NCBI GenBank assembly: GCA_964017155.1
Contig: OZ024857.1
Coordinates: 39,550,641 to 39,614,640, forward strand
Length of the DNA: 64,000 bases
Direction: 5' to 3'
DNA from: Oasisia sp. SBJ-2009
Lineage: Eukaryota > Annelida > Polychaeta > Sabellida > Siboglinidae
This document shows positions 523 to 51,812 of this stretch, piece by piece (within the stretch, counting starts at the first letter, position 1; each line of letters begins with the position of its first letter). The notes beneath the pieces were generated by a model that ran no database searches, was not told the DNA's origin, and saw only the letters and a list, made by a program, of their open reading frames with translations. Both the position numbers and the translations under genes were made by a program.

Positions 523-3500
523 ATGCTGTTTGAGGTAAAAACACTCCTACTGACAGTGACAGTCTTCTATCTACACACTGCAGCAACAGTGCCACTCGGT
601 AAGTTATACTTCTTCTCTACAGTTTTATAGAGTGTAGGCATTAAAAAGTAGTAACTTAAATTAATCATCTTGCTACATAAACTAACTGTCAGTGTCAATT
701 ATGAGTATGAAAAACTGGATTTTTTTTTCTAGACTGCAAGAATGCATTAATTACTTTCTGTACCACAATCTACAAACATATATCACTCAAAAGTAGTCTA
801 TGTTGTACAGCAAGTGAGTGGAGGTCATGCGTCAGTGCACATGTGATATCTCAGAGTCGTGACAACCATTAATTTTACTTCCTTGTTGTATATCGACCTG
901 GGGTCAGTGACAACTGCAGTGTGTCATTACAATTAATCTGTTAAATTGTCAAATGTTATGTACTTGTTGTAGTAAGTAACTGGTATAAATGTTCAACGGC
1001 AATTCATTTTTTTTAGTGTTAAACCACATTGATCAGTAGCCTCAACAGTGTCAAATATAATTACTGTTATACAATATTTGTTTATATCTCAATAACAAAT
1101 GCATTTAGCTAGACTTCTAATATTTCTATAACACGAAAGCCTTTTAAAATACAGGCATTTGTTAGTATAATTCAAAGGCATAATTCTTTTTTTGTACTTC
1201 AAGTTAGGTACTTATATTCAAACCTTTTCTATTCAACTACATTACCAACATATCACTGGTCAATGTGTCACATCACTGGTCAATGTGTCACATCACTGGT
1301 CACTGTCACATCACTGGACAATGTGTCACATCACTGGTCAATGTATCACATCACTGGTCAATGTGTCACATCACTGGTCAATGTGTCACATCACTGGTCA
1401 ATGTGTCACATCACTGGACAATGTGTCCATTCAATGCATACTAGCTAAAAGTAATATAATTTGTCTTTCTGTTTATAGTGAACAGAGTTGGGTGCATCTA
1501 CACAAATGGGGGCAAGATGACGTTGCAGTGTAATAATTCACAACGTATACAAGTTGTCAATGCCACAGTGGGACAGACTTCCTTGGAATGTTACAAAGAG
1601 AGGAGGTGTTGTCCATCAGTGGATGACTACAGATTTCAAGAATCCACACAAGACGTGAAATACCTGAAGGACAGATGTGATGGAAAGCAGACATGTGACG
1701 TCACAGTCAGGCAGTTGATAATAAAATACACGACTGAATATGAATCTGTTAACTACATTTGTAGAAATGATCCCATAGGTAAGCACACATTATGTACTTT
1801 TACTATGAAAACAATTTGTAATCATTAAAGTGTAATGTAAAGTTATAGTTCAGGGTAACAAAGACATCTTCAGGTGTGGATCAATTGTGTGCAGTTATCT
1901 CTGTGAGCAAAAGCTTTTAATACTTTAAGGTAATATGGACATGATGGTCATCTTGTGGTCAAAAAAGTGCAACTGCTGCTGCAGAAACTGGTGGAAATGT
2001 TCCTGGTGTTGTCACTAGTGGACACTGGACAGGGAATTAATTACAACAAATGATGGATCGAGAGACATTTCTTGTCACAGGTCAGTGTCAAATGCTGCTA
2101 AAAAGGTGATATATGCTAATTAGGGCACATACACTCAATATAATATAGTGAACACGGTTGATTATGGCCCTTTGGATGAAGTCTATATTTCACATTGGTT
2201 GTTGATTAAGGGTTGTTATTGGTTTTAGGGTTCATGCTGTGTTAGACAGACACAAATAAACTATTCATGACATAAATAGTTTCTGCTGTAGTGTCAAGGC
2301 CATAAGGTCTACTGATCAGTTTAACTGGTGTTCATATGAAAAAGTGTTACTATCATCCAATGGATGAGCAGTTTTAAATGCTAACAAAGATATGCAAAAA
2401 GTTTAATAAATTATCATAATATTATCAAATTTGAGTATTGGTTATATATTATAAAACTGCAGTTCTGCATGTTTTGAAGGATAAATCTGAATCATACACT
2501 GTAAGTTTAGTACCATACAATAAGTGTTTATATCATCAGATTAGTTACAATTCTAATTCTACTTCTTTTCTGTTTGCAGTTTATTCATGGGGCTGCCAGT
2601 TCAACAGCAATAGTTTAAACATAACGTGTCAGCAACACCAACATATTTATATCTTAAAATCAGTATTGAGACGAAGCTATAGATCATGTCGCACCAGGAA
2701 GACCTGTTGCACAGACAAGACTGCCTGTGCAATGTCTGGATCCTTGCAACGTGTACAACAGCTGAGGAACTTGTGTGACGGAAAGCAACAATGTCAAGTG
2801 ACTGTGACCAGGGAAGAGTGCACTTACAGAGATTACTACACTGACAATGAATTAGTTCGCTACTTTTGTATCAACCCTACTCCAGGTAAGTTGGCACTGC
2901 AATATTAAAATACAGACCCAATCAAAATATGACAGAGAGCACATGAATTTGTGTGAATGAGTGCGCGTGCGTGCGTGCATGACCACGTGTGCATGAGACA
3001 GCAAGGGGGGAGGTCAAGGGGAATGAGGAAGATGTAGATCACGTCACATAGCAACAGGAAATGTGACAGCTGGGAAGAACACACCTGGAGGGAACAATTG
3101 GGAGCAAAGTGAACCTTCTGTAACTTGGAACCTGACAGCAGGTTAGAAGGCAGTCAGCATCTAAAGACTGTTTCATTTAAGTACTCTAGCGTTAAATCAT
3201 TTGTTTAGCTACCATAACTCCTGTACAAGCAAAAGAGGAAGCAAAAGGCTCCAAGAAAGTTACTTACACTTACAGCATCAGACACAATTATAAATGTTTA
3301 ACAGTGGGAACTGGTGCTACATCATTGTAGAGCATTTGTGGTGGTGTACATTTTTGATCTCTGTAAAAATGTAAACTGTAATTGTACTAAACCACTAAAT
3401 TACCACTAAATTAATTGACGAAAACTGAGTTGACTGTTATATGTTTGCTTTATTGATGTGCATATGGCCAAGGACCATGTCAGATATTGCAAACATGCAG

Positions 3501-6500
3501 CGTCTGAATGTTATCTCCCATTGATGTTGCAGCTGTTACCACGACTACACCTTCAATCAAAACAATACCCTCAACCACTACCACAACAACCACATCATCC
3601 CCAACCACAATATCCTCGACCACGACACCCTTAACCACAATCACAACATCCTCGACAACAACCACAACACCCTCGACAACAACCACAACACCCTCGACAA
3701 CAACCACAACACCCTCAACAACAACCACAACATTCTCAGCCACGACACCTTCAACCATAACATTGACCACAACAACCACAACAACCTTGACAACAATAGC
3801 CTCTACCAAAACCACAGCAGCCTTGACAACAACCAGAGCAGCTTTGACCACAACCACAGCAGCACTGACAACAGCCACCCCAGTGAGGCCTACACCAGAC
3901 AATGGAGGGAGCAGCAGAAGTAGATCATCAGCCGGAGAAACTGACACAGCCAGCAGCCACACTAATATAGGCAAGACTCTGTCAAATCTGTTTTAAAGTT
4001 TATTGAAATGATCACAACTACCATCCCAATATCCACCTTTCCACAGTTACATCCTGGTTTAATAACAAGATACCGTATCATGATCATGTAAGACTGATGA
4101 ACCCTCGCAGTCTGCTACATTTAGATTGAAGGAAAGATATAGACCCGTCTCAGAACACAAGCAGCTCACAACGAGGCTGAAAAAGGACCGTAGATGTTCT
4201 GAAACTTATATTGAGCAGGAAACTCTTTTCTACCAGTTTTTCAAAGATATCAAAACTTTCACTTTGCATTTTGGAGTGCATTTAAATATATGGTATGGTT
4301 CATTATAAATGATAACATTAATGAATATTGTAACATACTGAGACATAACACATAAGATGGCAAGACAGTGTAAGGTACAGCTGAGACTGGGACTCCCCTG
4401 ACACGAGATAAGATAGGTTGATAGGTTTAACAAGATTTAACAAGATTTAACAAGATTGCCACCTAGAGAATCAACTCTAGATGGCAGGTGGACAAGGAAG
4501 CCGTTTGGCTTATCGAGAGTTCAACCTATCTATCTAAGTATACCCTGCCCGTCTTAGGTATATGTCAATTTTATTTTTAAACATATTAACACTTCTAGCA
4601 CCTACACAATCAGCTGATAATTTGTTCCATTCGTTTACTATTCTTTGGGAAAATGAAAATTTTCTAATATCTAGTCTACACTGCTTCTTTGCTAATGCAA
4701 CTCCATGTCCTCTAGTCCTTCTCTCTTCCTTGACCGTGAAAAAAATATTTCTGTCAATATTTTCATACCCATTCAATATTTTAAAAACCTCAATCTGATC
4801 TCCTCTCAATCTTCTGGTTTCTAGTGTTGTTAGACCACATTCTTTTAGACGCATTTCATAACTAATATTCCTGAGTTTTGGTATCATTTTTGTTGCTCTC
4901 CTTTGTACTCTTTCTAGCATATCAATATCCTTCTTGCGATATGGCCTCCATGCTTGTATACAATATTCTAAATGAGGCCTAACTATTGTTTTATAAAGCG
5001 GTATTATTAGTTCTTTTTCTTTGTATACTATATTTCGCCTAATTAATCCAAGAATTTGGTTTGCCTTCGCTGCTGCAATTCCACACTGCTCTGATACCTT
5101 CATGTCAGCACTAATGGTTAAACCTAAATCCTTTTCCTTTACAGTAGTATTTAGTACAGTACCACCCATTGTATATTGTGCATTTTCATTCCCATGTCCT
5201 GTGTGGAGGCACTTACACTTTCCAAAGTTAAACAGCATTTGCCATTTCTCAGACCATTCTATCAACTTATTTAGATCATCTTGTAAATGCTGTCTATCTG
5301 CATCACTTTTTATTTTCCTAAACACTTTTGTGTCGTCTGCAAACTTCAACACCTTGCTTGTTATGTCATCATCCAAATCATTGATATATATTAAGAATAA
5401 AATAGGTCCCAATACTGATCCTTGCGGTACTCCACTCAAAACAGATTTCCAATTTGAAACCTCCCCATCAACTACTACTCTTTGTCTTCTATCAATAAGC
5501 CATTTTTCTATCCAGTTAATCATACTATTTCCTATGCCATGGGCCTTTAGTTTAAGTAGTAATCTTTGGTGTGGCACTTTGTCAAAGGCTTTTTTAAAAT
5601 CTAAGTAGATTATATCTACTGGTGATCCCTCATCTACCCACTTTGTGACATCTTCCAAAAAACATAACATATTTGTTAAGCATGACCTCGCTTTTAAAAA
5701 CCCATGTTGAGATGTGTTTATCAATTTATTTTTAACAAGAAAATCAACCAAGTGATCTTTAATTAGTCTTTCTAATAGTTTACAAATCACCGATGTTAAA
5801 CTCACTGGTCTATAGTTCTCTGACTTGCTTCTTGATCCTTTTTTAAATAATGGTATGATGTTTGCTTCTTTCCATTCTACCGGAACCACTCCTTCCTCTA
5901 ATGCCAAATTGAACATTGTTTAGGGGGTAGATGGGCATTGTGGTTGGCTGGACTATTAGAGATTGTCATTGGCTAGTTTAAATGACATGTAGGGAGAGAC
6001 AGTTTGATAGGGATCCAGTCACAGGGAGAGGGAGGGAGTTGTCAGTCTCACACACAGTGCAGGGTGTGCAGCTGGAAGGCTTCCCTCCAGCTTGGGCTGG
6101 GAGGTGAGGCTGAGCTGCCTCTGTGTCATAGCTGGCATGGTCAGGGTATAGAGTTGACTTGTACACTGGATAGAATAAAGAATAAAATTGTGCAGCCAGT
6201 GTTTATTAGTCAGTCTATTGTGTTACAGGTATTTATAGTTGGTAGCTATCCCCCATTGTCTAGCAGCAGTTTCGTTACGACAAATATTATAATTTTATAT
6301 TTATAAAATAAAAACAGTGAAGTAATACTGTTGTGATATGATACAAAATTACAAATTCTCATTAATGCATGAGCATAATATGGAGTGACTGAATGTGACC
6401 ATAAGTCCAAGACACAGCATTACTGGAGTTGAGTCAATGTCACTGTGTTGTTGTTGTTGTAGGTCTCATAGTGGGTCTGATGACAGCAGCTTGTGTCGTA

Positions 6501-8356
6501 GTCATCGCTGCTGTCTTAGTCATCATCATCTGTAGGAGGAGGTAGGTAGTGACACTGTGCACAGAGTATATAATAGTTTTGACATATATAATATGTATAA
6601 GTAAGGTAACAGCTTGCAGAGTAAAAACATTGTGTTAATTGTTTACTTCATCAGTGCTACAAATTGAAAATTGCGAACCTTGAGGTCCCATCCAAACTGT
6701 TCTTTTACTATCGTGCTTGTGGAAAAAAGGCAGTGCCAGTTACCCACACTAAAATGTTTGCAAATTATGTTACATTATTTCAATTGTTGCCTCTTGCTCT
6801 CGACATAACAGAACGGTACCATAACATACTCCAAATAGGGCCTACAACCTGTTCAGGTATTGAGTGGCCCAAGGTATCAAGCCCTTGGACAAATTTGGTA
6901 AAAGTCTAAATCTACACCTGCTCACAAAGGTAATACATATCCATGTGGGCCTGCTAAATCGCACACACAATTTCAGCAGACAAATCAGCAGACAACATTA
7001 TTACATTTCGCTGTCATCTGAGAACCTGCCTGTGTAATCTCATCTATTCATGCTAGCTTCTTGGAGCTCCCTCCAACTGACAGAGAAGTGGGGCCACCAA
7101 CAGAACACAGTATTCACATTTATTGCATAAACTAACCCAGAAGTGTTGTAATTGATATTGTTATACCTCACTGTAATACACTCAATGGTAAGCGTGAATG
7201 ACGCAAATCACCGTAATACACTGATGAATGAGCCGAGAGGGGCACAATAGGCCGAGAGGTGCACAATAGCCTGAGAGGGGCACAATATCCCAATTGTTCA
7301 CCGCAGCGGCGGCGCTGCGGTCGTTACATCGGCCCACTCGCTGGGCGGCGCTGCGTATCAGAACTGTCAAGTGGGTCAACATGGTACCATAATTTACGTG
7401 TTGCTGTTACTTAATGACAGTTTGGTATAACAAAACAATTATTGTCCCTCCGTTCGGGTGACACCAGGATTGCAACACCCTCGGAAGTGTTGTTGCCCTC
7501 GGGCTTCGCCCTCGGGCAACAACACTTCCTCGGGTGTTGCAATTCCTGGTGTCACCCTCACTCCAGGACAACAATTGTATATTGTTGTTAATTGTTTTGT
7601 TTTTATTCATTTTTACACATCAACTACTTAATATAAATGCAGCTACACTATAAAATGTATTCATATTATTCCAGACGCAAGCGAGGTCCAGCCAGTCGCT
7701 CAGCCCTGGACAATCACCCATCCACACAGCCTGAAATGAACTTACATGCAATCACAGGATCCGTACAAATCACAAGATCCAGCCAATCAGAACAACCCCA
7801 GACTAATCTGTATGAAAGCATCCCAGAAGACACTGCAACATATATATCTGATGACACACACGTGTACTACAACAATGGACAGACAGTGACGCCACCTGAT
7901 GATGAACATGTGTACTACAATGACCAGTCTGGGGCAAGAGGGGCGAAGACTTCACGAGACGTTGCACTTGATGAGTTGTACAGCAAGCCAAACAAACAGA
8001 CCAAACCTGAGAATGACTCGGAAGACTACGACTTTGTGTGGACAGCCGGGGGGAGTGGAGGTGCTGGGGGGAGTGGAGGGGCTGGGGGGAGCGGAGGGGC
8101 TGGGGGGAGTGGAGGGGCTGGGGGGAGTGGAGGGGATGGGGGGAGTGGAGGGGCTGGGGGAAGTGGAGGGGCTGGGGAAGGGGGTACAAATGTGGAAAAC
8201 CAGGAGCTAAACTATATAGACATTGACCACAGTGTGACTCCAGTTCAAAGGTCAGAAGGGGTCAGCACCAGGTCACCAGAGGTCACTTATGCTGAAGTTC
8301 AACCTAAGGTCGGTGACGAGGACATGCAGATGGTTGAAAATGAACTGTATAACTAA
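523..8356 (+). CDS. Receptor gene A: two SUEL/Gal-lectin-like domains, Thr-rich stalk, TM, tyrosine-motif tail
   Basis: Spliced gene with six exons: 523-598, 1479-1778, 2580-2885, 3533-3970, 6463-6541, 7675-8356. They total 1881 nt, giving 626 aa and a TAA stop. Exon 1 encodes a hydrophobic signal peptide (residues 1-22). Exons 2 and 3 each encode one Cys-rich SUEL/Gal-lectin-like domain (about 26-125 and 126-227) with the family's conserved C-x-G-K-x-x-C-x-V core. Exon 4 is a Thr/Pro/Ser stalk (228-373). Exon 5 is a single TM helix (375-396) followed by an Arg-rich stop-transfer. Exon 6 is a 227-residue cytoplasmic tail with tyrosine motifs. Intron phases are 1,1,1,1,2. Intron 4 has a GC donor and contains a truncated CR1 copy. 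Domain order resembles EVA1C (two SUEL domains plus TM), but the tail does not. Predicted type I receptor binding a glycan or protein ligand; ligand unknown. Splice structure is confident, function inferred. Confidence 0.85.
1250..1430. repeat. 20-bp minisatellite in gene A intron 1
   Basis: About nine tandem copies of a 20-bp unit (catcactggtcaatgtgtca and variants) end about 50 bp before the acceptor of exon 2. The array has no stop in one frame and produces spurious ORFs; it is intronic. Confidence 0.9.
1479..1778 (+). CDS. Gene A exon 2: SUEL/Gal-lectin-like domain 1
   Basis: A 300-nt symmetric phase 1-1 exon with acceptor tttatag and donor g|gtaagc. It encodes a domain beginning V-N-R-V-G-C and ending Y-I-C. 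Eight cysteines include a C-C pair and the diagnostic C-D-G-K-Q-T-C-D-V-T-V block near the C-terminus. The Gal_Lectin family is expected to have an F-G-D-P-C block near the end; here it is replaced by a divergent stretch, so sugar specificity cannot be assumed. Same length as the lectin exon of gene B. Confidence 0.85.
2580..2885 (+). CDS. Gene A exon 3: SUEL/Gal-lectin-like domain 2
   Basis: A 306-nt symmetric phase 1-1 exon with acceptor gtttgcag and donor g|gtaagt. It encodes W-G-C at the start, a C-C pair in the middle, then C-D-G-K-Q-Q-C-Q-V-T-V and a terminal Y-F-C. It is clearly paralogous to exon 2 of genes A and B and probably arose by exon duplication. A possible N-glycosylation site lies in N-I-T near the second cysteine. 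Confidence 0.85.
3533..3970 (+). CDS. Gene A exon 4: Thr-rich mucin-like stalk with GC donor
   Basis: A 438-nt phase 1-1 exon that is mostly Thr, Ser, Pro and Ala, including about four copies of a 21-bp unit (P-S-T-T-T-T-T). It ends in a charged linker before the membrane. Such stalks are usually densely O-glycosylated and hold the ligand-binding domains away from the cell surface. The donor reads atag|gcaaga, the classic GC-AG form. Using it gives the phase 1 needed for the TM exon, and no in-phase GT donor was seen nearby. The long antisense Val-rich frame across this exon is a shadow. Confidence 0.8.
4427..5915 (-). mobile_element. 5'-truncated CR1-like retrotransposon copy in gene A intron 4
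   Basis: About 1.49 kb encoding the last 459 residues of the RT/C-terminal part of ORF2, with motifs Y-R-P-V-S-L-T-S, G-V-P-Q-G-S and F-A-D-D-T. It ends in three copies of the 10-bp 3' tail unit (aatcttgtta on the element strand). Read against positions 52845-54323 it has no indel except one tail unit and about five substitutions in 1479 bp by eye. The 5' break at 5915 lies inside the RT, typical of target-primed reverse transcription. Very recent insertion. Confidence 0.93.
6463..6541 (+). CDS. Gene A exon 5: transmembrane segment
   Basis: A 79-nt exon (phase 1 in, phase 2 out) with acceptor ttgttgtag and donor ag|gtaggt. It encodes about 23 hydrophobic residues (G-L-I-V-G-L-M ... V-I-I-I-C) followed by R-R-R. 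With the next exon this gives a six-residue basic stop-transfer, predicting type I orientation. Confidence 0.9.
7430..7607. mobile_element. Palindromic MITE-like inverted repeat
   Basis: The two halves are near-perfect reverse complements around a centre at about 7503. The arms share the blocks gggtgacaccagg, attgcaacaccc and aagtgttgttgccc, with outer aaaacaatt arms. It lies in intron 5 of gene A. No coding capacity, so probably a non-autonomous palindromic (foldback or MITE) element; family unknown. Confidence 0.7.
7675..8356 (+). CDS. Gene A exon 6: cytoplasmic tail with YxN and ITIM-like motifs
   Basis: The exon opens with basic residues after the TM and encodes residues 400-626. Tyrosine motifs in order: N-L-Y-E-S-I (Y446); H-V-Y-Y-N twice (Y464/465 and Y480/481), fitting the Grb2 SH2 pattern Y-x-N; D-E-L-Y-S-K-P (Y502); L-N-Y-I-D-I (Y580) and V-T-Y-A-E-V (Y605), both strict ITIM-consensus matches; and a C-terminal N-E-L-Y-N. 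A Gly/Ser/Ala-rich minisatellite separates the membrane-proximal and distal motifs. H-x-Y-Y-N, L-Y-S-K-P, Y-A-E-V and the terminal L-Y are shared with gene C. Phosphorylation and SH2 recruitment are inferred from motif form only. Confidence 0.88.
8047..8186 (+). repeat. 18-bp coding minisatellite in the gene A tail
   Basis: About seven to eight copies of an 18-bp G-rich unit encode G-G-S-G-G-A repeats inside the cytoplasmic tail. The unit length keeps frame, so copy-number changes would alter only linker length. G-runs on the coding strand could form quadruplexes. All three forward frames stay open, which explains the overlapping ORFs here. Confidence 0.92.
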
Positions 8357-8517
8357 ATATTTAATTTACAATCACTAACATCTTGCAATAACTACATGAA
8401 TGTTACACATGTGTTACATCTATGATAGTGATCTTACACACCACGTATCAGTTAGACAAGCTGATATAGGTGTTACAGCTATTGACAGAAATGCACATAA
8501 ATATAAACAAAATAACC

Positions 8518-11267: not shown

Positions 11268-14200
11268 ATGTGTGTCATCACTAGGACTCTGGTGATTGTG
11301 CTCACATGGCAGCAGGTCTGTGGGAGAGTGACTGTACCTATAGGTAAGTGTTGTGTGCTAACTGCAGGCAGTAATGGGGACGGAATTTGTACTACTGGCA
11401 GCTGTGTTGCAATGTACGACAACATCTACAGTTCCACTATTAAAATAGCAATCCAAGATGCAATCTACACCCTAAAAAGCCCACAAATACTGGTTATCTA
11501 TACCTATGCTCTGTGTGTGTATTGTTCAGTTCCTTGACATCATTCGTGTTACAGTAAAAAATTGCATTATGTAACTGGTTCAATGCCATCTTATTCCATC
11601 TTATATGATAGTCACAGACATTCATTTGCTTTTCCGCTCACAACAAACACCTTCCAAGTGGTGAGGGGAGCTAATGCAGTATATACACATGTGCTGCTGG
11701 TTTTTATTGTTGACAAACACTTCATTGTGTATGTTCTAGTGTCTAGCACAGAAGCAGCCTATTCGAGTTTCATATCAGTATTTATATCAGTAAAAACAAA
11801 ATCATGTTTTGTACAAATCACGTATGTGTTAAAGTACAGCTTATTACAAAACATTATATTTTACTGACATAATTTGTTCAGCTGCCAACACATTAACATT
11901 ACAAATCCTATTAACCAAAACTCTACCACAAATCAGAATGTTGGTTACTGCTATTTTGTGCTATTCGGTACTTCTACTTAAAATTAAATAGTAATTAATA
12001 TTTCAACAGTACCACTAATGGTTTAAATAATGGTAGTCTTTATTATTATAAACAAACTATAGAATGAATATATTTTGAGTATATTTATAAACATTACATC
12101 GGTATCCATTTCAAATATTGTACTGTAGAACTTTGACTGCAATATTCTGTGTTGTGAAGGGGTATGGTATCCGTAAAGTACATCATCTTCAGGGTTAAAC
12201 ATTTCTGAGTGTGGTGTGTTTTACCTGCAGGGGAATAATTCACTTTGAAGATGGAAGGTACCAATAGTGGGTATTTGTGAACAGTAGCATAATTTTGTCT
12301 AGACACCGTATTATTCCTTATAGATGCACACTGCCTAATAGACATGCACCCCTTTTTACAGAGGTGAAATGCCCATAATGAAACTGTCTAGTGTGAATGC
12401 GGGAATTGAAATGCTGAACATATGGTAATACTCATAGCGCCACCTTGTGGACATTTTCTAGACAACATCTCTTTGTGCATTAGTCGTAAAATGACATCAC
12501 GTAATTGTTTCTATCTTGCCATTTGCTTCCGTTTTATTTTCAAAGTTGGACGTGTCATCATAATCGCATATATCTTTTTAACAACACACAGGAAGAATTG
12601 AAACAAAATGACATTCGTTATCACATAAATATCTCTATTCACAAGGACTGGTCAAAACAACGAACAGTGAAGCCTGGATGTCTGACTTGACATACTTGAT
12701 AATCAGTCGCTCCCTGTATGTGCACAGTTCATGTCACCCTGTTAGACATCACATCGTCAGTAATGCACATGGATTCAGCATACATTGAGGGTATTCTGCA
12801 ATGTTTGTGCTATGTGCTGCCTATCTTAAATGTGCACATGTGTGACATGTGTGTAATTTGTTTGATGGTGCATTAGTATTGATTACTGATACCTTGTGCT
12901 ACTGTTGCCTTATGTGAAATTAACAGATACCTACCCAAGCCCTTGCCCTCATGCACTGCATGTCTATTTGGGATAATACAGTAGGTTAAATGTTACAAAA
13001 AGATGAAGGTCTCAAAATGTTTCTTATATACATGTAATTTGACATCATAAGTATGTAGGAAAACTATTTTCAAATGGGTGAAAAAGCTCTATAAAAGCCA
13101 TTTAATTACGGTCCAACCACATGTGGTACCTCACTGATGTTTGTTTGTCTTTTCTGCCAACAGTGACATACAATGGCTGCATGCATGATGACAACGGCAA
13201 CTTCCACTTAAACTGTACCACTTCCGAGAGGATATATGTGCTCAATGCAGTACTGGGTAGAAGTGATGAGATGTGTCAGGACGAGGCGAGATGCTGTCCC
13301 TCATCCTCTGACTGCACTAGTGCTGCACAGTCTGACCACTTGGACCTGCTGAAGAACCAGTGCAATGGGCAACAACAGTGCCAAGTAGCTGTGGTCAAAC
13401 AGTTGTGCAATGGACATTTGACCGATTACGAAACAGTGAAATTTGTTTGTACCACCTTTGCAGGTATGTCAACGTCACATTGGAAAAATTGCTATGTTTA
13501 CTTACAAAGGTTCTACGTTATTATATACTCTCCAAAGCTAATATCTCCTTCCTTTCCATTCCTCTAATTTGTTCCTTGCCCTACAGCTGTAATTAGGGTT
13601 GCCACCTTCAACCCTAGCTATTATTATCATACATTTTGTTTTCAAATTATGCACAAATTTATATCTTGCCTATATAGCCTTGAATATAAGCATGGTCTTA
13701 ATTAAGCATTAGTGATAATATCATATTTTTTCAAATGATCATCATGTTCACATGTCAAAAATGACACAAGTGCTTGAAGGAAATAACAAAGACAGTATAG
13801 AATGTCACGAACACACTGGCTGTGACAAGAGGGTCACCAGCTAGTCTGGCTGATTTTGCTCTGGAAGAATGAAGCTGGAAAAAGAAATGTGAAAAGTTTG
13901 TTATAGGACATCATACCTTAATAGGACAACAAAAAGGTAAATGAGATGATTTTGATTCCTTATAGACACAATCTATAAGTACATTATATAAATAATCTAC
14001 TTTCTATGCCACACATAATTTACATTGCAGGTGAAAGCACAGCAGCTACGACCACAGCTCTGACCACCACAGCTACAACAACCACACACATTTCTACCAC
14101 AGCCACACAATCCACACCCACAACAAAAGCATCAACCATCAAAGCTACAACCACACACATTTCTACCACAGCTACAGAATCCACACCCACAGCAAAAGCA

Positions 14201-16254: not shown

Positions 16255-16279
16255 ACACGATGGCAGGGTATTCTGGACT

Positions 16280-17769: not shown

Positions 17770-17826
<57 letters not shown>

Positions 17827-20324: not shown

Positions 20325-23300
20325 ATGGATCTTGCTGTCTTCTTTCTGCTGTTGGTGGCTGTACCTTCACCTATTCTGAGCGACACTACCACAGGTAAGT
20401 TACAAGCCGACACACCAATGGGGCTATATGCTATATACAAAGGGGTCTCACTGGCAATACTTGCTAAGTTTGTGTCAGTGCAACTACACATAACTGTTGA
20501 CCATTCAGTGTGCTCTGCAGGTGAAGAGATCAACTAAGCCGGTGTTGTCAGTAATTGCAGTACAAACTATCCCATTAGTGAACTCAGTAGTTGTTAATAA
20601 TACATAATTTTAATGTGTATATGAAGTCATACTACATGTTGTCCTTTAACTAAATTGTCACCATGGCCTAGTTACAGTGAGGCAAAAAAGAGTTCACACA
20701 CAACGTTTGTCTAATCTTAGATCTGACATATCTATCCTTGGATCAATTTGACAGTGAATAATCAAACCTAAAAGGCTTTAATGGTGCATTTAACTAAAAA
20801 TATTTCACAACACTGCACTGTCGCTCTAGCAATCTGTGGGCATGGGCAGCAGTTTGAAGTGACATAATTTTTTAATCTCATTAAAATGTGCTATAAAGTG
20901 TGGACAAGCTTTTCAAATAAAATATGTCAGTACTTTTTATTTTACTTTTACCTTGGATGGACATTTTTATAACGCATTTAGTATTGAATTGGTTCTTCTG
21001 GACATTTTAATTTTGGTGACATTACAAATGTATATCATCATCATCATCATTGTGCAGCCATTGTGTCCCATGATTGGGCAAAGGCCTGAGTTGTAGACTT
21101 GTCTCTTTGAGCATATTCCAATATTGTCCTTGAAGATGTCGCGGTGCTTGGTGAATGCTGTCCAAATGTATATAATATGTACATGTATATATAATTATAG
21201 TTATGTGTGTGTATTACAATGTGGACATTATAATATATATATATATATGTATATGTATATGCATATGTATGTATGTATACATACGTATATATATTATATA
21301 CACATACATATATTATATATATATATATATATATACAGACAAATAATATATAGCCATATAGACTAGTTTAATAAATTATATCATGTCATCACTTGCAAAT
21401 GACCTTTCAAAATGGTACACACAACCATTGACTACCTGGGTTAATAGATAAAGTTCCAAGATCTCAAAATGTACAGTTTTGTGGTGTCCTATTCATATTC
21501 TCATCTGCATGCGTACATGCAACTAACTGCTAGCTATAGTATTACAGTACACACTTGCAAATGTTATTAGATGTAAATATAAAATTGTACGCTAGCATCC
21601 CATTGTGAAACCTGGCAGAGTTTTATAATATAAATTTTAATAACCAATAATGCTAAAGATAGTCATGAATTTAATGGGGGTTTTTAGTATGCAAGGAGTT
21701 AATAAGCAAATGCATGCGACATTGTGATGTTGTTTGGTTTACAGCCCTTGAGCCAAATACCACCATGTCCAGTAATGACAACTCTACTAACGACAACTCT
21801 ACTAACGACACCTCTACTGATGTCTCCAGTGACTACACCACCACTGCCAGCAGCACATTCAGCAAGAAAGATGACACAACAGCTGTCACAGGTAGGACAG
21901 ATCTATGCACCCTCCCACTAGAGGCTAAACATACCACAGGAAATCTACACACTTTCATAGTTTACGTGCGTCAGTTTAACAAGATCTGTTGACATTTTCT
22001 TTAACATTTTGTAATTATATTACAACATACACCAGTATGTGAGAATAACTGACTTCACTTGACCAGTGTCTTGTAACTTGTATTTAATGAAACAAGCCAA
22101 GGAACTAGTGTCTATATATTCAATCGATGATAATACTATTATTACTTAAAAAACAAAAAAGTACAAAGTGGTCACTTAAAACTGTTGTGCAACTGCTTAT
22201 AGCACTGTACAACAGTGTATGTGGTGTGTGGTGTTGTGCTATGTGCTACATATCTTCCACTGTGTGTGTGCAGGTGAAGTTACAAGTAGAGGTGGCAACA
22301 CAGGTGCTGGGTCAAGTATGGTGATGATCATATCAGCGGCAGCAGGTGGCGTCATCATCTGTATCATCATCATTGTAGTAGTTGTCCTACTGCTCCGAAG
22401 ACGGAAAAGGTGTGTTCCCACTAACACTGTATGTGACACGTTCACTAACACTGTATGTGACATGTTCACTAACACTGTATGTGACATGTACACTAACACT
22501 GTATGTGACATATGCACTAACACTCTATGTGACACGTTCACTAACACTCTATGTGACATGTGCACTAACACTGTATGTGACATATGCACTAACACTCTAT
22601 GTGACATGTGCACTAACACTGTATGTGACATGTGCACTAACACTGTATGTGACATGTGCACTAACACTCTATGTGACATGTGCACTAACACTGTATGTGA
22701 CATGTGCACTAACACTGTATGTGACACATTCACTAACACTATATGTGACATGTGCACTAACACTGTATGTGACACGTTCACTAACACTGTATGTGACATG
22801 TGCACTAACACTGTATGTGACACATTCACTAACACTATATGTGACATGTGCACTAACACTGTATGTGACACGTTCACTAACACTGTATGTGACATGTGCA
22901 CTAACACTGTATGTGACATGTGCACTAACACTGTATGTGACATGTGCACTAACACTGTATGTGACACGTTCACTAACACTGTATGTGACATGTGTAATAA
23001 CACTGTATGTGACACATTCACTAACACTGTATGTGACACGTTCACTAACACTGTATGTGACACGTTCACTAACACTGTATGTGACACGTTCACTAACACT
23101 GTATGTGACACGTTCACTAACACTGTATGTGACATGTGCACTAACACTGTATGTGACATGTGCACTAACACTGTATGTGACATGTGCACTAACACTGTAT
23201 GTGACACGTTCACTAACACTGTATGTGACATGTGTAATAACACTGTATGTGACACATTCACTAACACTGTATGTGACACGTTCACTAACACTGTATGTGA

Positions 23301-25885
23301 CACGTTCACTAACACTGTATGTGACACGTTCACTAACACTGTATGTGACACGTTCACTAACACTGTATGTGACACGTTCACTAACACTGTATGTGACATG
23401 TGCACTAACACTGTATGTGACATGTGCACTAACACTCTATGTGACATGTGCACTAACACTGTATGAGACACGTTCACTAACACTGTATGTGACATGTGCA
23501 CTAACACTGTGTGTGACATATGCACTAACACTGTATGTGACATATGCACTAACACTGTATGTGACATGTGCACTAACACTCTATGTGACATGTGCATTAA
23601 AACTGTATGAGACACGTTCACTAACACTGTATGTGACACGTTCACTAACATTGTATGTGACATGTGCACTAACACTGTATCTGATATGTGCACTAACACT
23701 GTATGTGACATGTGCACTAACACTGTATCTGATATGTGCACTAACACTGTACGTGACATACACTGCATATACACTAACACTATATGTGACATTGTACGTG
23801 TATGCAAGTTATAGCTAAAAAAAATAATGACAAGTGTGTAATTCAAGTCTGGAAATAGATGCAATTTGTGTTTGAAACTGAAACAAATGTGAAATCAATA
23901 CTTTTAAGTTGATTAATTTCTGAAACATATATGATGTATACCAGTGTATACACGTTGGTGTGCATATTATGATTTCAAATAATCTGTCTTATAAATATAC
24001 TAAATATGTTAATAACAACTGACCAACTGGTGGACCAGCGGTCAGTAGTCCAAGCAAGTGTATAGGAAAAGTAAACCCTGGAGCGAACACTTTACCTGAA
24101 TTTAATTATATTTACAGTGAATATTAACATTTGAACCATCGTAGTTGCTTTGTTTCCCTGCCCCCCTGCCCCCCTGCCCCCCTGCCCCCCTGCCCCCCTG
24201 CCCCTCTGCCCCCCTGCCCCCTGCCCCTCTTGTAACACCTGTTGTGATGTCAAACATATTGTAATTGTTCTTTTGTCTTATATGCTTTTAAAAAGGACAA
24301 TTCTACCTGAAACCCTGAGTGGTTATTCATTAACCAGGTGGCATCACTGTAGGCAAATGGCTAGTTGCTCCTGTGCATAACTGGGTATAATAGTATAACT
24401 TAACGAAAATGACATAGTTTCTTTCTATTGTGCCCAAAGCCACAACAGGTACGGCTGTGCTAACCCAACACTCCAATTTATGGTTCCAGGACCAAGAATG
24501 ACAGCGCATCAATAGAAGCTCAAGAAGAAACAGAGACAAAAGAAGGAGAAAGTATGTACGCTGAAGTATACGACAGAAAGCAGTCTGATGATCCTCACAT
24601 CTACTACAACGAGGAAGCAGCTGCAGCACTGGATGAGGAGGAACAGAAGACGGGGAAACAAAACAACAAAGCAGCGAACAACAATAAACAACCTTCAGCA
24701 AAACAAAAGAAATCTAGCGACAAGAAATCGAAGCCTATAAAGGGAGAATCGGAAAACGGTGACGCAAACCCATATTACAACCTCGTAGGCATACCAGCAT
24801 CCAGTAACAAACAGGAAACTTCTGGCAAAGAGAAACAGGCAAAGAAAGACAGCAAAACAAAACCTGAACAAAAGACGAAGAAAGAGAGTGACAAACAAAA
24901 GCCAGACAAAAGTGCAAATAATTCCAAGAAGACACCACCAAAAGAAACAAAAGATGACGATGATGGAGACGAGAGTTACACTGATGACACCCCTCACACT
25001 CCTCACACTGCTGACTTAGAGGATCTCTACAGCAAGCCAATGAAGGTGACCAAAAAAAAGTCTGCATCCTCCTCACAGAAGCCCGACAATAAAAGAGACA
25101 GTTCCAAAAAGACAACAAAAACCCCAACTGTAAACACCCCATCCCCACCGCAGCCAGCTAAGGCAGCAAAAGAACAACCGGCAAGTGGTAAAAAGAAAGA
25201 GGAAAAACCGAAACCTGCCTCCAAAGAAAAAACAGATGATGCAAATGTACCAAAAGGCAAAAAAAAGAAGTTTCCACTCAAAAAACAAGCATCAAAGGAG
25301 AGTGCTGGAACCAGTACCGAGAAACAACCCAAAACCACGGACAAAGTCAACAAGAAAACTGACAGCCAGACTAACGGATCAACAAAAGAGCAAGCCAAAC
25401 CATCTGGCAAACCGGAGAAACCAGAAAGAAAACAGACTGTGAGTGTGGCACCAACTAAGACCACAGTTCCACCCATCAAGCCCGCAGTTCGCCCTAAGCC
25501 TGCCTCAGTTCGACCCTCAGTCACAAGCTCCCCAACTCCACATGAATCTGAGTATGCATATGTGTCATTGCCAAAGGAGAGAAAACCTTCACTGGCTGCG
25601 GTACCATCAGATGCCTCCGCCGGTGTCAACAAGGACACTAATGATACAAACAACACAAATGCAGACGATGATGATGATGATGATGATGTTGTGTATGTAA
25701 GACTGAACCACAGCGATGCACAAGACGAAGAATATCTTGTGGAGGAGCCAGAAAACGATGATGACGAAGAAGTCGCTTACACAGAAATAAGAACACCCAC
25801 CAGACCTCAAGAGACACAAGCTGCAGACACGAAAGCTGCAGATAATGCGACAGTCTTTGTCGACAATGATCTTTACAGCTCATAA
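20325..25885 (+). CDS. Receptor gene C: short Ser/Thr ectodomain, TM, large Lys-rich tyrosine-motif tail
   Basis: Spliced gene with four exons: 20325-20394, 21745-21891, 22274-22409, 24490-25885. They total 1749 nt, giving 582 aa and a TAA stop. Exon 1 is a strong signal peptide (M-D-L-A-V-F-F-L-L-L). Exon 2 is a 49-residue Ser/Thr/Asn/Asp stalk with several N-x-S/T sites. Exon 3 is a TM helix (about 90-111) ending R-R-R-K. Exon 4 is a 465-residue tail. Phases 1,1,2 match A and B. No lectin exon was found in the 1.35-kb first intron or elsewhere nearby, so as seen the ectodomain is only a stalk of about 65 residues. Intron 3 holds a 1.36-kb minisatellite directly after the TM donor. The tail shares motifs with gene A. 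It may act as an adaptor-like partner or be a receptor that lost its lectin exons. Confidence 0.83.
21230..21345. repeat. AT/ATGT-rich microsatellite
   Basis: Alternating TA and TATG runs in intron 1 of gene C; the adjoining 80-codon ORF is low-complexity. Confidence 0.85.
22274..22409 (+). CDS. Gene C exon 3: juxtamembrane linker and TM segment
   Basis: A 136-nt exon (phase 1 in, phase 2 out) with acceptor tgtgtgcag and donor ag|gtgtgt. It encodes a Gly/Ser linker, then S-M-V-M-I-I-S-A-A-A-G-G and about 18 Ile/Val/Leu residues, then R-R-R-K. If the donor were skipped the frame would run on into the minisatellite for about 350 codons. Confidence 0.83.
22427..23790. repeat. 24-bp minisatellite (~56 copies) in gene C intron 3
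   Basis: About 56 tandem copies of a 24-bp unit (core actaacactgtatgtgaca plus four variable bases). Variants at the last four positions form higher-order blocks; one run of about ten units is repeated nearly verbatim at about 22900-23110 and 23140-23350. Because 24 is a multiple of three and the unit lacks stops, frames of 415 to 541 codons appear on both strands. These are repeat artefacts. Confidence 0.95.
24158..24232. repeat. C-rich (ctgccccc)n repeat
   Basis: About nine copies of an 8-bp C-rich unit upstream of the gene C tail exon. The complementary strand is G-rich. Confidence 0.9.
24490..25885 (+). CDS. Gene C exon 4: 465-residue cytoplasmic tail
   Basis: Acceptor atggttccag, phase 2. 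Tyrosine motifs in order: S-M-Y-A-E-V-Y (Y141, ITIM match), H-I-Y-Y-N (Y156/157), N-P-Y-Y-N-L (Y213/214), L-E-D-L-Y-S-K-P (Y298), Y-A-Y-V-S-L (Y473/475), V-V-Y-V-R-L (Y520, ITIM match), V-A-Y-T-E-I (Y548, ITIM match), and N-D-L-Y-S-S at the C-terminus. Between them lies a long Lys/Pro/Ser/Thr-rich disordered region with lysine clusters and Pro-rich stretches that could bind SH3 domains. An Asp run (GAT/GAC microsatellite) precedes Y520. Gene A has the same order of Y-Y-N, L-Y-S-K-P, distal ITIM-like and terminal L-Y motifs. Confidence 0.88.
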
Positions 25886-27492: not shown

Positions 27493-27595
<103 letters not shown>

Positions 27596-30290: not shown

Positions 30291-33200
30291 ATGACTTGCA
30301 GAAGTTCAGTCCTGTTTCTCTTCCTTCTGACTCTCTACTGTACAGGTACGTACGTACACATCAACAGCACTTTTTAGTGTTGTCGTCATGTAACTCATGT
30401 TTATAAAAAAACTACATAATTTAATACATAAAAAATTTAACTGGTCATTTTATTCATTCAAAACAACATGCTTCTGTATGTACCCTATTGATTTCTGTTT
30501 TTGTGTACTTTGACACTGTCACTGTCAGCACCCGTGTCAGCAGCTGTCAGCACCTGTGTCAGCAGCATTGCTGTAAGAATGTTATGACTTATGACCGAGT
30601 GTCTGCGCAACTCTTATGACTAAGAACACATATACACACACACATGATTGTATAACACGCTGCAAGCTCAGGCAGAAGGTTCATATATGCAGTTATTCAC
30701 ACCAGAACGATAACTGAAACCTACACAAAACTAAGTGTGTAGTTAAATCTACAAAAACTATGATACAGTACGGTATCATGAATAAGCACACTGGTCAATC
30801 ATTCCAAACCGGACATAAAAAGTACGACTTAGAAAGAAGACTGACAGAAAGAGGAAGTTACTTTATGTGTAATGAATACCCACGACGGTTCCCACGTATG
30901 ACCTCACTCAGCCAGTGTGGTGTTGACTGTTAAACCTCCTACACAGGGTCAGATGTGACACCAAATACAGATTGCTATCACTCTCTTACTGCCAAACTTC
31001 CATTCTGTTTGCACCAGTGTGCTAGTGGGCTAGAAATGTTAATATGTTATGTAAAGAAACATACATTTGTGCCATATCACCACTCACATCAAATTACTTA
31101 TATCGTCATAAAATTAGGGTGTCCCAGTTTTTATACCCTACATCTAAGAACAAAAGAGCAGCTAAGCTTAGTCATCCATTTGTTAAAATGCTAGATTATT
31201 GTGGTACAACAGGTTATAAATAATAGGGAAAATGTGCATGTGTATCATAAAACTAAATAAATAAATAATATTTTTGTAAATACACTTGTTTAAAAACATT
31301 GAGAACACACAAGGGATGGCCAGTAGAATCTGCTCTGTTGCATCTCTTCTTGTAGGATACAATACGAACACACGTCTCTGAAATACAGTAAAGATGGCAT
31401 GAAAATAGACATGAGAAATAAACATGATTTTACACAACATATCCTAGAGTATGATGTGTTTAGATGTTAATTCTGTTTACAAGTGACTACTGTATATATG
31501 ACTACTTGCTTCTGCACATCCATCCAACAAATAAATCAACACAGTAGCTGGCAATAAATGCCTGGTATCACCATTAGAAAATTCCAGACTTGTTGAGAAC
31601 CTGAGGACTGACAGGCAACTCAATTTACCTGCCACAAAAAGTAAATAACTTGAATAACTACCTTGGTCAACGTCACTGGTGCTAGGGAGAGAATGACCAT
31701 AGACAGGGATCAGTGGCCCTCAGTGTCGGGTGGAGTTACACATACACTTGTATATAGCATCTCCACATGAGTGAAATAGACATAATTTGCTTTACGATAT
31801 AAATATAGTGTATAAAGCTGCTCTAATTGTGTACAAACCTAACTGACTGAATTTTGCACCACTTAATTACTTTTTTTTTACATCCTAACATCTATAAAAA
31901 AAAAATCCATAATGTATGTTTTCTGAGTTCAGACAGCAATTATTTTCTGAATTTTTTTACTACATATCTGAACACAATGTTTTTGAACTCTGTACATTTT
32001 CAAACAACCACACAACCACAAACTCTTATAGTTTCATTTAAATTTTAGACCTAAATCAAGACACTGCTGTGATGTGGAATATTTTTTTACTGTATTAGTC
32101 AAACAAGGAAGTGAAGCTAACAATGTTATAAATTATTGCGTATTTTCCCATTAGTCACAAACATGTTACATTTTTCTCACAACCACACATAAAGGTCAGT
32201 CCATTATTACTGTATATATTTGTACATCGATTTTACATATAACATTCTTTTCTCCTGTATGTTTTGGTCAGTAGGGAATTTGGTTTTCGTAGGTGTAAAA
32301 ACACACCATCGATTTGGTATTATGCTGGGATGAACTATACAAATCACAGCTTGTTGTTTACTTGCAGTTGTTACTGCACCGGAAGCAGCAGCACCAGCAC
32401 CAGCACCAGCACAAGCAACAACACAAACGAAACCAACAACAACAACAACTAAAGCAACTACAACTACAAAAGCAACTACTACACCCACAACCACTACTAA
32501 AAAATCTACAACTACAACCACAACCACAACCACAACGACACCCAAACCGACCTCACAAACAACAGATGAGTTGACAACCGATGCTTTGCCAACAGAGAGT
32601 GGCCTTGACACCATTGACTCCACTAACAGCCAGTCTCTCACTAGTAAGTTCTTTAGTTTTTACTTCAAACACACCTCAAATTATTTCATATTCATTCAAC
32701 TAGTAGGCCTGTCAGATAATTATGTATACATTTTATGAAGGACATTTAAAAAATGTCATGCTTAATGAGTTCGAAAATGGGTGGACAAAAGATATGTTTT
32801 TGCATTCTGATTCTTTTTCCTACATTTAGCCGGGTTGGTAAAGGAACCAGAATATTATCCTCACAGGCCGTGTTAGTTTGAAATGATGTGAGTTACTATT
32901 AGTCATGTATATTTTGTCATGTAAATGAGTCATTACAGGGGAAATGTGTCTCAAGAAGTATGTGCTCTGTATATTATTTTTGTTCCAGTTTGGTGGCACC
33001 CATAAAGGATGTTTATACATGTTGGCTGTAAAATTAGCTCAGACGTCAACAACAAAATAGATGTGCAGTTAGATTGCAAACAACAAGGCTTGTGGTCGCT
33101 ACAAAAATGCACCACCTAATGGAAGCACATCCCTTTTCATCAAACTAAACAACATATTTTCAACTCTACATAAGTCTGTTTCACTAAGCCTCCTGATGTA

Positions 33201-35445
33201 ACTGAAACTGTCTGCAGATGTATCTAGATATAATGACAGTGATATATTAAAATATGCTATGTGACATATTATCAGCATATTTCTACATATTAAACTCACT
33301 GATACCAGATATAATTCTGCTGTATTTGTTTTACAGAAACTATATTGCTGGGAGTATCAGCAGCATTGAACGTCATCCTTCTTGTGGTGATAGTTGTTGG
33401 CGTATTCATACACAAAAACAGGTCAGTCGCCATGTCATATTGTACATACAGGTGTACATTACAAACATTCCTCAGCAAACTCTTATAGTTTCATTTAAAT
33501 TTTAGACCTAAATCAAGAAACTGCTGTGATGTGGAATATTTTTTTACTGTATTAGTCAAACAAGGAAGTGAAGCTAACATTGTTATAAATTATTGCGTAT
33601 TTTCCCATCAGTCACAAACATGTTAAATTGTTCTCATCTGAGCAGGCAACCAGTCATTTCATATATCTTTTGTTTAGCCATATCATACAAGATACTTGGA
33701 CACATTTCCTATTATCATTAAATGTCACACAGAGTTCAATGAGAGAAAATGCTGTATTTCACCACCACTATATTTAGACTATTTCTAATACAAACTACTA
33801 CTGTAATTGTTTTGATATCCACGTTTCAAGTCTGTCTAAAAACCCAGATACACCATCCGACAATGTCGTACGACAATGCAGTGCTCATGTCTGATGTTTA
33901 TTAGCTATATCGGATGACCTTGTATTGTCACATGTTCTGACAGTGTGAGACGGAAGCGCGACTATGTGTGATGGTCCCTAAGCACAAACCACTGTTTTCA
34001 AGAACTCCATTGCTGTAAATGGCGCACATATATGGAAAGAACTAGACCCAATAATAAGAAACTTGAACTCTCTCTCTGCTTTTAAAACGACGTATCATGT
34101 TTTTAACTAGAAAACAGTGACGCACGATTCAATGAACACTTTTACTAAATGTTTTATTGTATGTATATATATATATATATACTGTATATATATACATATA
34201 TATATATATAATGCTATTTATCTTGTTTTAAAATGTACATCTATTTATTATTATTTTTATTGAAATCTTCTTTTTATTTATTCAGTATATCTATTTTTTA
34301 ATATTATTCAATTTTTGCAATGTATAAGGTAGTCGATCAAATTGCTTAGTGCATGTATATTATGTTTTACAATACACTTGCGTTAGTAATCATGACCTTT
34401 AGGGAGATCAAATGATTATTATGGTCACTCTTTCGCTGAGGTGGGAGTTTGTCAGTGTGATGCGCTTTTCATTGGCTATCAGATCCCCGTGTTGGATAAG
34501 AATAGCGCATGTTGGATCACCATCAGACACCAGAGAGTGTTTGGAGGTGATGTAAACAGGTACACATTGCCATAGCAATACAGCCGATGGGTCTCTGCCA
34601 TACGGCATTGTCTGACAGTGTATCTGGGCCTTAAGACTGTCAGGAATAAATCAGCTCGCAGGTTATAATAATAATTTTTTTTGATAAAGCGCCGTATATC
34701 CGGAAACATTTCCATTCATAAATTCATTATAAAATACCCTACAAGTAAGCTTATGCACTGCCCCATTTCTGCTTTCAGAATGAAAAGGAAAAACAACACG
34801 AAGGACAACCAGGACAAGTATTACTACACACACAACATGCCAGGTGGGGGAAAACCGGAGACTCCAACAACATACGATGCCATCGAGGGATCACAGGGTG
34901 CCACTGAGGCATCCCAGCCTCACAGACAGCCAAGTACGACTGATGCTACTGCAGATGTTGATTATGAGCCTGTTGAGCCCCCTCAGGACAAACACACGTC
35001 AGTGGACAATGGTCAAGTCAGTGACCAATACCTGAGTGTTATCAGTGAGCCTGCCGGTACTATCTATCAAAATGTTGCCATTACAGCCCCGGAAGCAGGC
35101 AGCTCAAGTCAGCAAAGTACACCAAGGCCGAAGCCAAAACCGCGGCTAACGAAGGAACCGTCGACTGATTCCTACACTGAAATGTACAGCTACACACCCA
35201 TGAGTGCATCACGTAATCAGGTTGGAGCCACTGACAGCCTTGCACTAGATGAAACGGTACCACCCCCTCCAGAAGAGGAGATAAATAACAAAGTGGGCAA
35301 CCACCACTATTACAACCAGGACGCCTTCTCAAAGTCTACATCGAAACAACACGACCAGAAAAAATCTAGCCCTGAGACTCCATCTAGAGAAACCGATGAG
35401 AACTTGTATTGCAATCAGTCGGCATTCATTCGTGGGAAACGTTAA
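30291..35445 (+). CDS. Receptor gene D: Thr-rich ectodomain, TM, tyrosine-motif tail
   Basis: Spliced gene with four exons: 30291-30345, 32368-32643, 33337-33421, 34779-35445. They total 1083 nt, giving 360 aa and a TAA stop. Exon 1 is a signal peptide (L-F-L-F-L-L-T-L). Exon 2 is a 92-residue Ala/Pro then Thr/Lys-rich mucin-like stalk. Exon 3 is a TM helix (about 112-135). Exon 4 is a 222-residue tail. Phases 1,1,2 match the other three genes. No lectin exon was found in the 2.0-kb first intron. Intron 3 contains a TIR transposon relic, and a 161-bp duplication flanks the stalk exon. Tail motif Y-D-A-I links it to gene B; Y-Y-N links it to A and C. Predicted mucin-like signalling receptor or co-receptor; ligand unknown. 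Confidence 0.83.
32019..32179. repeat. 161-bp direct duplication, copy 1
   Basis: Matches 33476-33636 at the same length with about six differences by eye. Lies 188 bp before the gene D stalk exon. Confidence 0.9.
32368..32643 (+). CDS. Gene D exon 2: mucin-like stalk
   Basis: A 276-nt symmetric phase 1-1 exon with acceptor acttgcag and donor a|gtaagt. It begins with Ala-Pro repeats, then Thr/Lys runs, then an acidic juxtamembrane segment. The antisense Val-rich 144-codon frame is a shadow. Confidence 0.82.
33337..33421 (+). CDS. Gene D exon 3: transmembrane segment
   Basis: An 85-nt exon (phase 1 in, phase 2 out) with acceptor ttttacag and donor ag|gtcagt. It encodes T-I-L-L-G-V-S-A-A-L-N-V-I-L-L then V-V-I-V-V-G-V-F-I, followed by H-K-N-R. 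Confidence 0.85.
33476..33636. repeat. 161-bp direct duplication, copy 2
   Basis: Second copy of 32019-32179, starting 55 bp after the TM exon donor of gene D. Together the copies bracket the stalk and TM exons. Confidence 0.9.
33843..34628. mobile_element. DNA-transposon relic with ~33-bp imperfect terminal inverted repeats
   Basis: The left end cccagatacaccatccgaca continues with atgtcgta. The right end, read on the minus strand, begins cccagatacactgtcagaca and continues atgccgta, so the ends are inverted repeats with a few mismatches. No transposase frame lies inside the 786 bp, so it is non-autonomous. It sits in gene D intron 3. Superfamily not determined; flanks taa/tta hint at a 3-bp target site. 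Confidence 0.65.
34779..35445 (+). CDS. Gene D exon 4: cytoplasmic tail with YDAI, YxN and YxxM motifs
   Basis: Acceptor gctttcag, phase 2. Tyrosine motifs: T-T-Y-D-A-I (Y171, ITIM-like with Thr at -2), V-D-Y-E-P-V (Y201, ITIM match), D-Q-Y-L-S-V (Y223), T-I-Y-Q-N-V (Y235, Y-x-N), Y-T-E-M and Y-T-P-M (Y271 and Y277, Y-x-x-M as bound by PI3K p85), H-H-Y-Y-N-Q-D-A-F (Y316/317) and N-L-Y-C-N-Q-S-A-F (Y349). The last two are repeated modules sharing Y-x-N-Q-x-A-F. A Pro/Lys-rich stretch (R-P-K-P-K-P-R) and a P-P-P-P run may bind SH3 domains. Confidence 0.87.

Positions 35446-37227: not shown

Positions 37228-51812
<14,585 letters not shown>

Follow-up and report, generated by a model that had tools for sequence, protein, structure and literature searches.

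The window analysed here is a 64,000-nucleotide stretch of the annelid Oasisia sp. SBJ-2009 (assembly GCA_964017155.1, contig OZ024857.1, hereafter C4; C4:39550641-39614640); positions without a contig prefix are those of the window. It carries four plus-strand genes (genes 1-4), which form the 3′ end of a tandem array of about 17 genes beginning some 100 kb upstream of the window. The array looks like an undescribed family of recognition receptors, in which lectin-type heads are predicted to be joined to a tail resembling that of vertebrate inhibitory immune receptors. A first-pass annotation had proposed that the four genes form a tandem family of variable domain content, encoding single-pass receptors that combine a SUEL lectin ectodomain, a mucin-like stalk and a tyrosine-motif tail; our analysis supports this architecture and extends it to the whole array.

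Gene models and domains of the window genes

We rebuilt the genes from AG acceptors and GT or GC donors, within 5 bases of the rough boundaries and with a single open frame. This yielded one unique solution per gene, with predicted products of 626, 376, 582 and 360 amino acids for genes 1-4 (Table 1). The intron phases are 1,1,1,1,2 in gene 1, 1,1,1,2 in gene 2 and 1,1,2 in genes 3 and 4, so that all introns are in phase 1 except the last, which separates the transmembrane (TM) exon from the tail exon and is in phase 2. Fourteen of the 15 donors are GT, the sole GC donor being that of gene 1 exon 4. The four joined coding sequences, with their common exon plan and phases, were thereby reproduced exactly as first annotated. 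The stalks, described earlier as Thr-rich, were borne out as Thr/Ser-rich, with a combined Thr and Ser share of 63%, 50% and 51% in the stalk exons of genes 1, 2 and 4, respectively. The earlier description of SUEL/Gal-lectin-like domains and/or stalks divides by gene: lectin domains were found in gene 1 (two) and gene 2 (one), and genes 3 and 4 have a stalk only.

Table 1. Exons of the four window genes, with the evidence for each.
Feature	Position	Strand	Basis
Gene 1 exon 1, signal peptide	523..598	+	Splice rebuilding; gene 1 among 15/15 genes with an upstream candidate
Gene 1 exon 2, SUEL domain 1, phase 1-1	1479..1778	+	Pfam E 1.2e-4; array profile
Gene 1 exon 3, SUEL domain 2, phase 1-1	2580..2885	+	Pfam E 5e-3; array profile; another ENA contig has a version 87% identical
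Gene 1 exon 4, Thr/Ser-rich stalk, GC donor	3533..3970	+	Splice rebuilding, composition
Gene 1 exon 5, TM segment, donor phase 2	6463..6541	+	Splice rebuilding, family TM profile
Gene 1 exon 6, cytoplasmic tail: YYN, DELYSKP, ITIM-consensus LNYIDI and VTYAEV 25 residues apart	7675..8356	+	Splice rebuilding, motif scan, tail search, tail alignment
Gene 2 exon 1, signal peptide	11268..11343	+	Splice rebuilding
Gene 2 exon 2, SUEL domain	13164..13463	+	Pfam E 6.4e-6, predicted fold
Gene 2 exon 3, Thr-rich stalk with 69-bp repeats	14031..14630	+	Splice rebuilding, composition
Gene 2 exon 4, TM segment	15547..15616	+	Splice rebuilding; missed by family TM profile
Gene 2 exon 5, short tail, 29 residues, SLYDAI	16170..16254	+	Splice rebuilding, motif scan
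Gene 3 exon 1, signal peptide	20325..20394	+	Splice rebuilding
Gene 3 exon 2, short Asn/Ser/Thr stalk, without lectin	21745..21891	+	Splice rebuilding, Pfam scan
Gene 3 exon 3, TM segment	22274..22409	+	Splice rebuilding, TM search
Gene 3 exon 4, long tail: HIYYN, EDLYSKP, VAYTEI	24490..25885	+	Splice rebuilding, motif scan, tyrosine-context comparison
Gene 4 exon 1, signal peptide	30291..30345	+	Splice rebuilding
Gene 4 exon 2, Thr-rich stalk, without lectin	32368..32643	+	Splice rebuilding, composition
Gene 4 exon 3, TM segment	33337..33421	+	Splice rebuilding, TM search
Gene 4 exon 4, tail with YxN and TxYxx[IV] motifs	34779..35445	+	Splice rebuilding, motif scan

A Pfam search of the three lectin exons had been set beforehand as a test, and SUEL_Lectin (PF02140) was the best family each time, though under the curated cut-off. 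A Foldseek search with the predicted gene 2 domain gave SUEL, rhamnose-binding or latrophilin lectin domains in all of its top 13 rows, with E≤0.001 in one only. By Pfam profile and predicted fold, the window lectin exons belong to the SUEL domain. Classical rhamnose-binding lectins (RBLs) contact the sugar through YGR, DPC and KYL motifs. Among 27 SUEL segments, partial ones included, DPC occurred in none, [YF]GR in one and KYL near the C-terminus in one; because these motifs are missing, we do not claim the label 'rhamnose-binding' here. The described rhamnose contacts are Glu42, Tyr63, Gly117 and Lys120 (PMC2430599; here and below, literature is cited from passages, titles and abstract openings). 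A Pfam scan of the four window proteins at E up to 1 gave no GPCR, GAIN or olfactomedin domain and no EVA-1 architecture. Across the genome PF02140 matched 78 places, many grouped on several contigs (e.g., a 1,793-aa open frame at C7:43448387), and many of these other SUEL exons probably belong to other SUEL genes.

Past the stop codon of gene 2, positions 16815..16895 (+) read MMVMNDLYADENYYSV..., which by eye is like the tail C-terminus of other members, and is possibly a relic of a longer gene 2 tail or an alternative exon. A 41-bp minisatellite of 7.8 copies (16279-16597) lies directly after the stop codon and before this tail end, and may be a trace of the event that shortened the tail. 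The last intron of gene 3 holds a 24-bp minisatellite of about 56 copies (22419-23759), directly after the TM exon.

The tandem array and its tyrosine-motif tails

The genome searched comprises 764 Mb in 33 contigs, and the first lectin of gene 1 as a query marked 41 places in it. A SUEL profile run over both strands of 194 kb of C4 found 23 segments in 22 exons, all on the plus strand between 39450129 and 39564093 (114 kb); 40 kb of C1 gave four further segments. N made up 2,500 bases of the sequence analysed. The count of about 17 genes on C4 consists of 13 examined genes, genes 2, 3 and 4, and one atypical first member. The donor of the TM exon is in phase 2 in all 14 genes with a located TM segment, and a good phase-2 acceptor precedes the tail in 12 of the 13 genes with located tails. 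Smaller clusters lie elsewhere in the genome. One, on the minus strand of C7 near 49.10-49.144 Mb (30 kb examined), comprises seven SUEL exons together with stalks rich in Ser/Thr and two hydrophobic segments; its tails contain S-L-[ED]-D-L-Y-[SR]-K-P and partly also YAEI. The C4 TM profile had no match in these 30 kb. At least 34 tail matches were obtained among 150 scored of 6,099 candidates, 33 of them at lectin loci (the C4 array, C4 36.2, C1 54.26-54.33, C1 22.55 and C5 30.7 Mb) and one, weak, elsewhere on C5. Two identically scoring lectin places on C1 (C1:54279681 and C1:54324533), about 45 kb apart, are either a recent segmental duplication or an assembly duplicate.

We scanned the tails for the immunoreceptor tyrosine-based inhibitory motif (ITIM) in the form [ILVS]xYxx[ILV] and for related motifs, taking significance from shuffled tails. 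Gene 1 exceeded the shuffles for ITIM (P 0.026), Y-x-N (P 0.013) and Y-x-x-[ILVMP] (P 0.033), and gene 3 for ITIM (0/2000 shuffles) and Y-x-x-[ILVMP] (P 0.0025), with Y-x-N not significant (P 0.19). The gene 4 tail was enriched in Y-x-N (P 0.036), Y-x-x-[ILVMP] (P 0.032) and TxYxx[IV] (P 0.003); its one ITIM-consensus site was not significant (P 0.19). Gene 2, with one tyrosine in 29 residues, exceeded chance only for its single ITIM-like site, SLYDAI (P 0.0145). The earlier ascription of several ITIM and Y-x-N motifs to the tails fails for gene 2 and, as regards ITIM, for gene 4. The tyrosine contexts of gene 3 resemble those of the array tails (0/500 shuffles as high), those of gene 4 less so (4/500). 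Across the family, with tail relics excluded, at least one ITIM-consensus site was present in 12/12 tails, with a shuffle P<0.05 in 10 of them. The motifs [LI]xYxx[IV] and VTYxEV stand exactly 25 residues apart in 7/7 aligned tails, and 24-26 residues apart in three more. The two tyrosines of PD-1 have a similar spacing.

Mosaic genes, relatives and neighbouring sequence

The tails of genes G, H, J, K, L, N and X entered the analysis of nonsynonymous to synonymous change (dN/dS), and the six of these with a lectin-1 exon were used to compare synonymous divergence (pS). Neither analysis, nor the 25-residue alignment, included the damaged tail M or the tails of I and C; tail relics were excluded from both analyses, and pairs with saturated dS received no ratio. 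Mean pairwise identity was 0.53 for lectin 1, 0.49 for lectin 2 and 0.68 for the tails. Synonymous change in lectin and tail was compared because it is expected to be about equal along one gene. In 12 of 15 gene pairs it was higher in lectin 1 than in the tail, the bootstrap interval of the difference lying above zero (N-X and K-N were undecided, K-X was reversed), so that the genes look like mosaics from exon exchange. In BLASTN between array genes (matches of at least 80 bp, at most 14 per pair), among the matches listed, G and J have only the 3′ portion of the tail and beyond in common (529 bp, 89%), J and N a 134-bp tail block (95.5%), and K shares with M, N and X the lectin-1 exon with its flanks, the TM segment and tail parts, and not lectin 2. 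Exon-level conversion or exchange between array genes would be the simplest account.

Tail homologues were found in three hypothetical proteins of the vent tubeworm Ridgeia piscesae (NP493_180g07090, NP493_144g05014 and NP493_748g01020), 77-87% identical to the best array tail, the closest with 177/203 identical residues. One Ridgeia protein (P0020), as annotated in that other species, has TM segment and tail in one chain, with residues matching across the predicted phase-2 junction of gene K. The Ridgeia proteins thus have homologous tails in common with the array; they differ in bearing hypothetical-only names and in lacking an ectodomain in the sequences compared.

At least three array members are damaged by stops or broken frames, two of them in a SUEL exon (C4:39463211, TGA; C4:39514480, TAG) and one in its tail (C4:39548084). 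The locus might then consist mostly of decaying duplicates or gene-model artefacts, which we regard as very improbable, since the long tails have kept an open frame and resemble one another between genes and in Ridgeia, the gene models close uniquely in frame, and tail dN/dS is 0.27-0.71. Another reading is that the genes encode cell-adhesion or guidance receptors of the EVA-1/latrophilin or PECAM-like kind that happen to be duplicated and have no role in recognition. The known membrane SUEL proteins (latrophilin, EVA-1, PKD1-like) share fold and membrane anchoring with the array proteins and include a Slit co-receptor, and several of their RBL domains likewise replace sugar-contact residues (PMC2430599). 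The array proteins differ in their mucin-like stalk, tyrosine-motif tail and tandem layout. Their copy number, damaged copies and exon exchange would be unusual for adhesion or guidance genes, and we consider this alternative rather unlikely.

European Nucleotide Archive (ENA) contigs carry several family members without a high-identity counterpart in this assembly. Lectin P0003 is 87% identical to the second lectin of gene 1 (next best 72-73%), and P0004 at most 77% identical to any place listed in the assembly; other ENA members were compared with the C4 and C1 stretches only. Such members may come from an alternate haplotype, a different individual or a different species.

Among neighbouring sequences, window 37501-38308, between gene 4 and the NAT10 gene, holds (AGAC)45 followed by 19 copies of a 30-bp repeat. 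Minus-strand exons of a NAT10/TmcA RNA cytidine acetyltransferase lie downstream of the array (39711-50479). The 3′ end of a CR1-like long interspersed nuclear element (LINE) occurs twice, at 4434-5920, inside gene 1 intron 4, and at 52842-54328, with 1,480/1,487 identical bases (99.5%); the element is young. The second copy belongs to a long minus-strand element (52942-56924) with a reverse transcriptase frame and a GDSL-type first frame. The mitochondrial contig C33 (15,483 bp, genes on one strand) reads cox1-N-cox2-D-atp8-Y-G-cox3-Q-nad6-cob-W-atp6-R-H-nad5-F-E-P-T-nad4L-nad4-C-M-rrnS-V-rrnL-L-A-S-L-nad1-I-K-nad3-S-nad2, an order read from frames and tRNAs, with rRNAs and gene names placed by position, and which we take to be the annelid ground pattern. 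By this order and by the tail homologues in Ridgeia, a vestimentiferan, the animal is probably an annelid close to vestimentiferan tubeworms.

A candidate recognition role

We consider it fairly probable that the array is an annelid tandem complex of about 17 type I membrane receptors with a recognition role and ITIM-type signalling. The circumstantial support for the recognition role, as first annotated, comes from lectins that have diverged further than the tails, the mosaic build of the genes, the damaged members and non-identical ENA lectins. Several results weigh on the other side. The window SUEL exons score 22.8, 17.6 and 26.9 bits, under the Pfam cut-off of 31.4 bits that two C7 relatives reach (34.0 and 31.4 bits). 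Genes 3 and 4 were assigned to the family by position, plan and motifs, without significant overall similarity, and the gene 4 tail as a genome query matched itself alone. A signal-exon candidate with a phase-1 donor lies upstream in 15/15 genes (13 on C4, two on C1; 11 with CQQ near the end), a count without a chance control, and TM acceptors went uncounted, those inside the matched segment being invisible to the script used. Tyrosines were not significantly more often invariant in the tail alignment than other residues (6/11 versus 67/180 columns, P 0.34), and an ITIM consensus alone is no proof of inhibition. P0003 and the second lectin of gene 1, the one allele-like pair, differ at 17/101 residues in the exon and 4/55 in the translated flanks, and this contrast between exon and flanks is not significant (P 0.14). 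Pairwise dN/dS was below 1 wherever computable, with 0.48-0.94 for recent lectin pairs, so positive selection lacks support; diversifying selection is possible.

If the receptors do act in recognition, the lectin head would bind a protein or a glycan on a surface; rhamnose bound through the classical site is an improbable ligand. Receptor clustering would lead to phosphorylation of the tail by a Src-type kinase; a SHP-2-type phosphatase could then dock on the paired ITIM-consensus tyrosines, with YYN and YSKP engaging Grb2-like and Crk/Nck-like adaptors, an assignment that follows SH2 preferences. The usual output would be a higher activation threshold in cells meeting microbes, symbionts or foreign cells. 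Recombination would keep the tails alike, with heads exchanged and diverging, and the tail-truncated gene 2 could serve as a decoy or modulator.

The target of recognition may be microbial. In that case SUEL heads would read bacterial surfaces, and symbionts would be tolerated because the ITIM-type tails damp the response. This is a genuine, if less than even, possibility: the sole named relatives found are from Ridgeia, a symbiotic tubeworm; potential functions of SUEL/RBL proteins in a gutless annelid include recognition of microbe-associated molecular patterns (PMC5117596); and in vestimentiferans lectins are highly expressed in the trophosome, the expanded innate receptors being Toll-like receptors (TLRs) and NLRs and not lectins (PMC8476170). 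The classical rhamnose-site motifs are missing, however, and the immune system has been argued to have no major part in taming trophosome symbionts (PMC8789280).

Allorecognition or self-marking, as by Hydractinia Alr or Botryllus fester/FcoR, was suggested earlier and found no direct support; we think it improbable, and symbiont or microbe sensing at least as plausible. The formal plan is alike (clustered, variable ectodomains, ITIM-type tails), and the non-identical ENA members hint at variable haplotypes, but those contigs could stem from another individual or species, and tubeworms are not known to have fusion biology. Hydractinia Alr ectodomains are Ig-like. Both Botryllus fester/FcoR and Hydractinia Alr are clustered invertebrate multigene receptors with ITIM-type tails, as here, such motifs occurring in Alr candidates too, and a comparable inhibitory/activating logic is described for FcoR and Alr; Botryllus ectodomains are Ig/sushi, in contrast to SUEL here, and the allorecognition role is theirs (PMC12065747).

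The fairly probable recognition complex also has a vertebrate likeness. Vertebrate clustered ITIM receptors (Siglecs, KIR/LILR, NKC C-type lectins, CEACAMs) combine variable ectodomains, similar tails with ITIMs, truncated-tail members, and birth and death of genes. The array shares this plan, with similar signalling a possibility, but ectodomain fold and phylum are unrelated and common descent is unsupported. More tentatively, it could be an annelid counterpart of leukocyte-receptor complexes built on SUEL folds, not Ig or C-type lectin, in which conversion keeps the inhibitory tail uniform and shuffles the heads, and receptor sets differing between individuals distinguish self from symbionts, microbes or foreign cells; we hold this whole picture to be doubtful.

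The first-pass annotation knew of no family uniting SUEL domain, mucin stalk and ITIM-type tail in a tandem array, and we found none either in the passages, titles and abstract openings covered. Tubeworm papers report TLR/NLR or general immune expansions, or expression of peptidoglycan recognition proteins and TLRs, and the passages cited contain no description of a SUEL-ITIM family (PMC8476170, PMC10192322, PMC8789280, PMC3372519); nor do titles or abstract openings of the wider literature. From the gutless annelid Olavius algarvensis seven SUEL/RBL transcripts are known, and the passages cited do not describe an array of ITIM-tailed receptors (PMC5117596). Clustered ITIM receptors are thus a known kind, of which the SUEL-headed annelid version appears new. 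The family also illustrates how such genes escape annotation, with divergent domains under profile cut-offs and Ridgeia relatives named hypothetical only. If the proposed function is true, clustered ITIM-type receptors would have arisen on yet another ectodomain type, in a spiralian, and among relatives of chemosymbiotic tubeworms, whose admission of symbionts is still debated (PMC8789280, PMC3372519); annelid immunology would gain a concrete, testable receptor locus.
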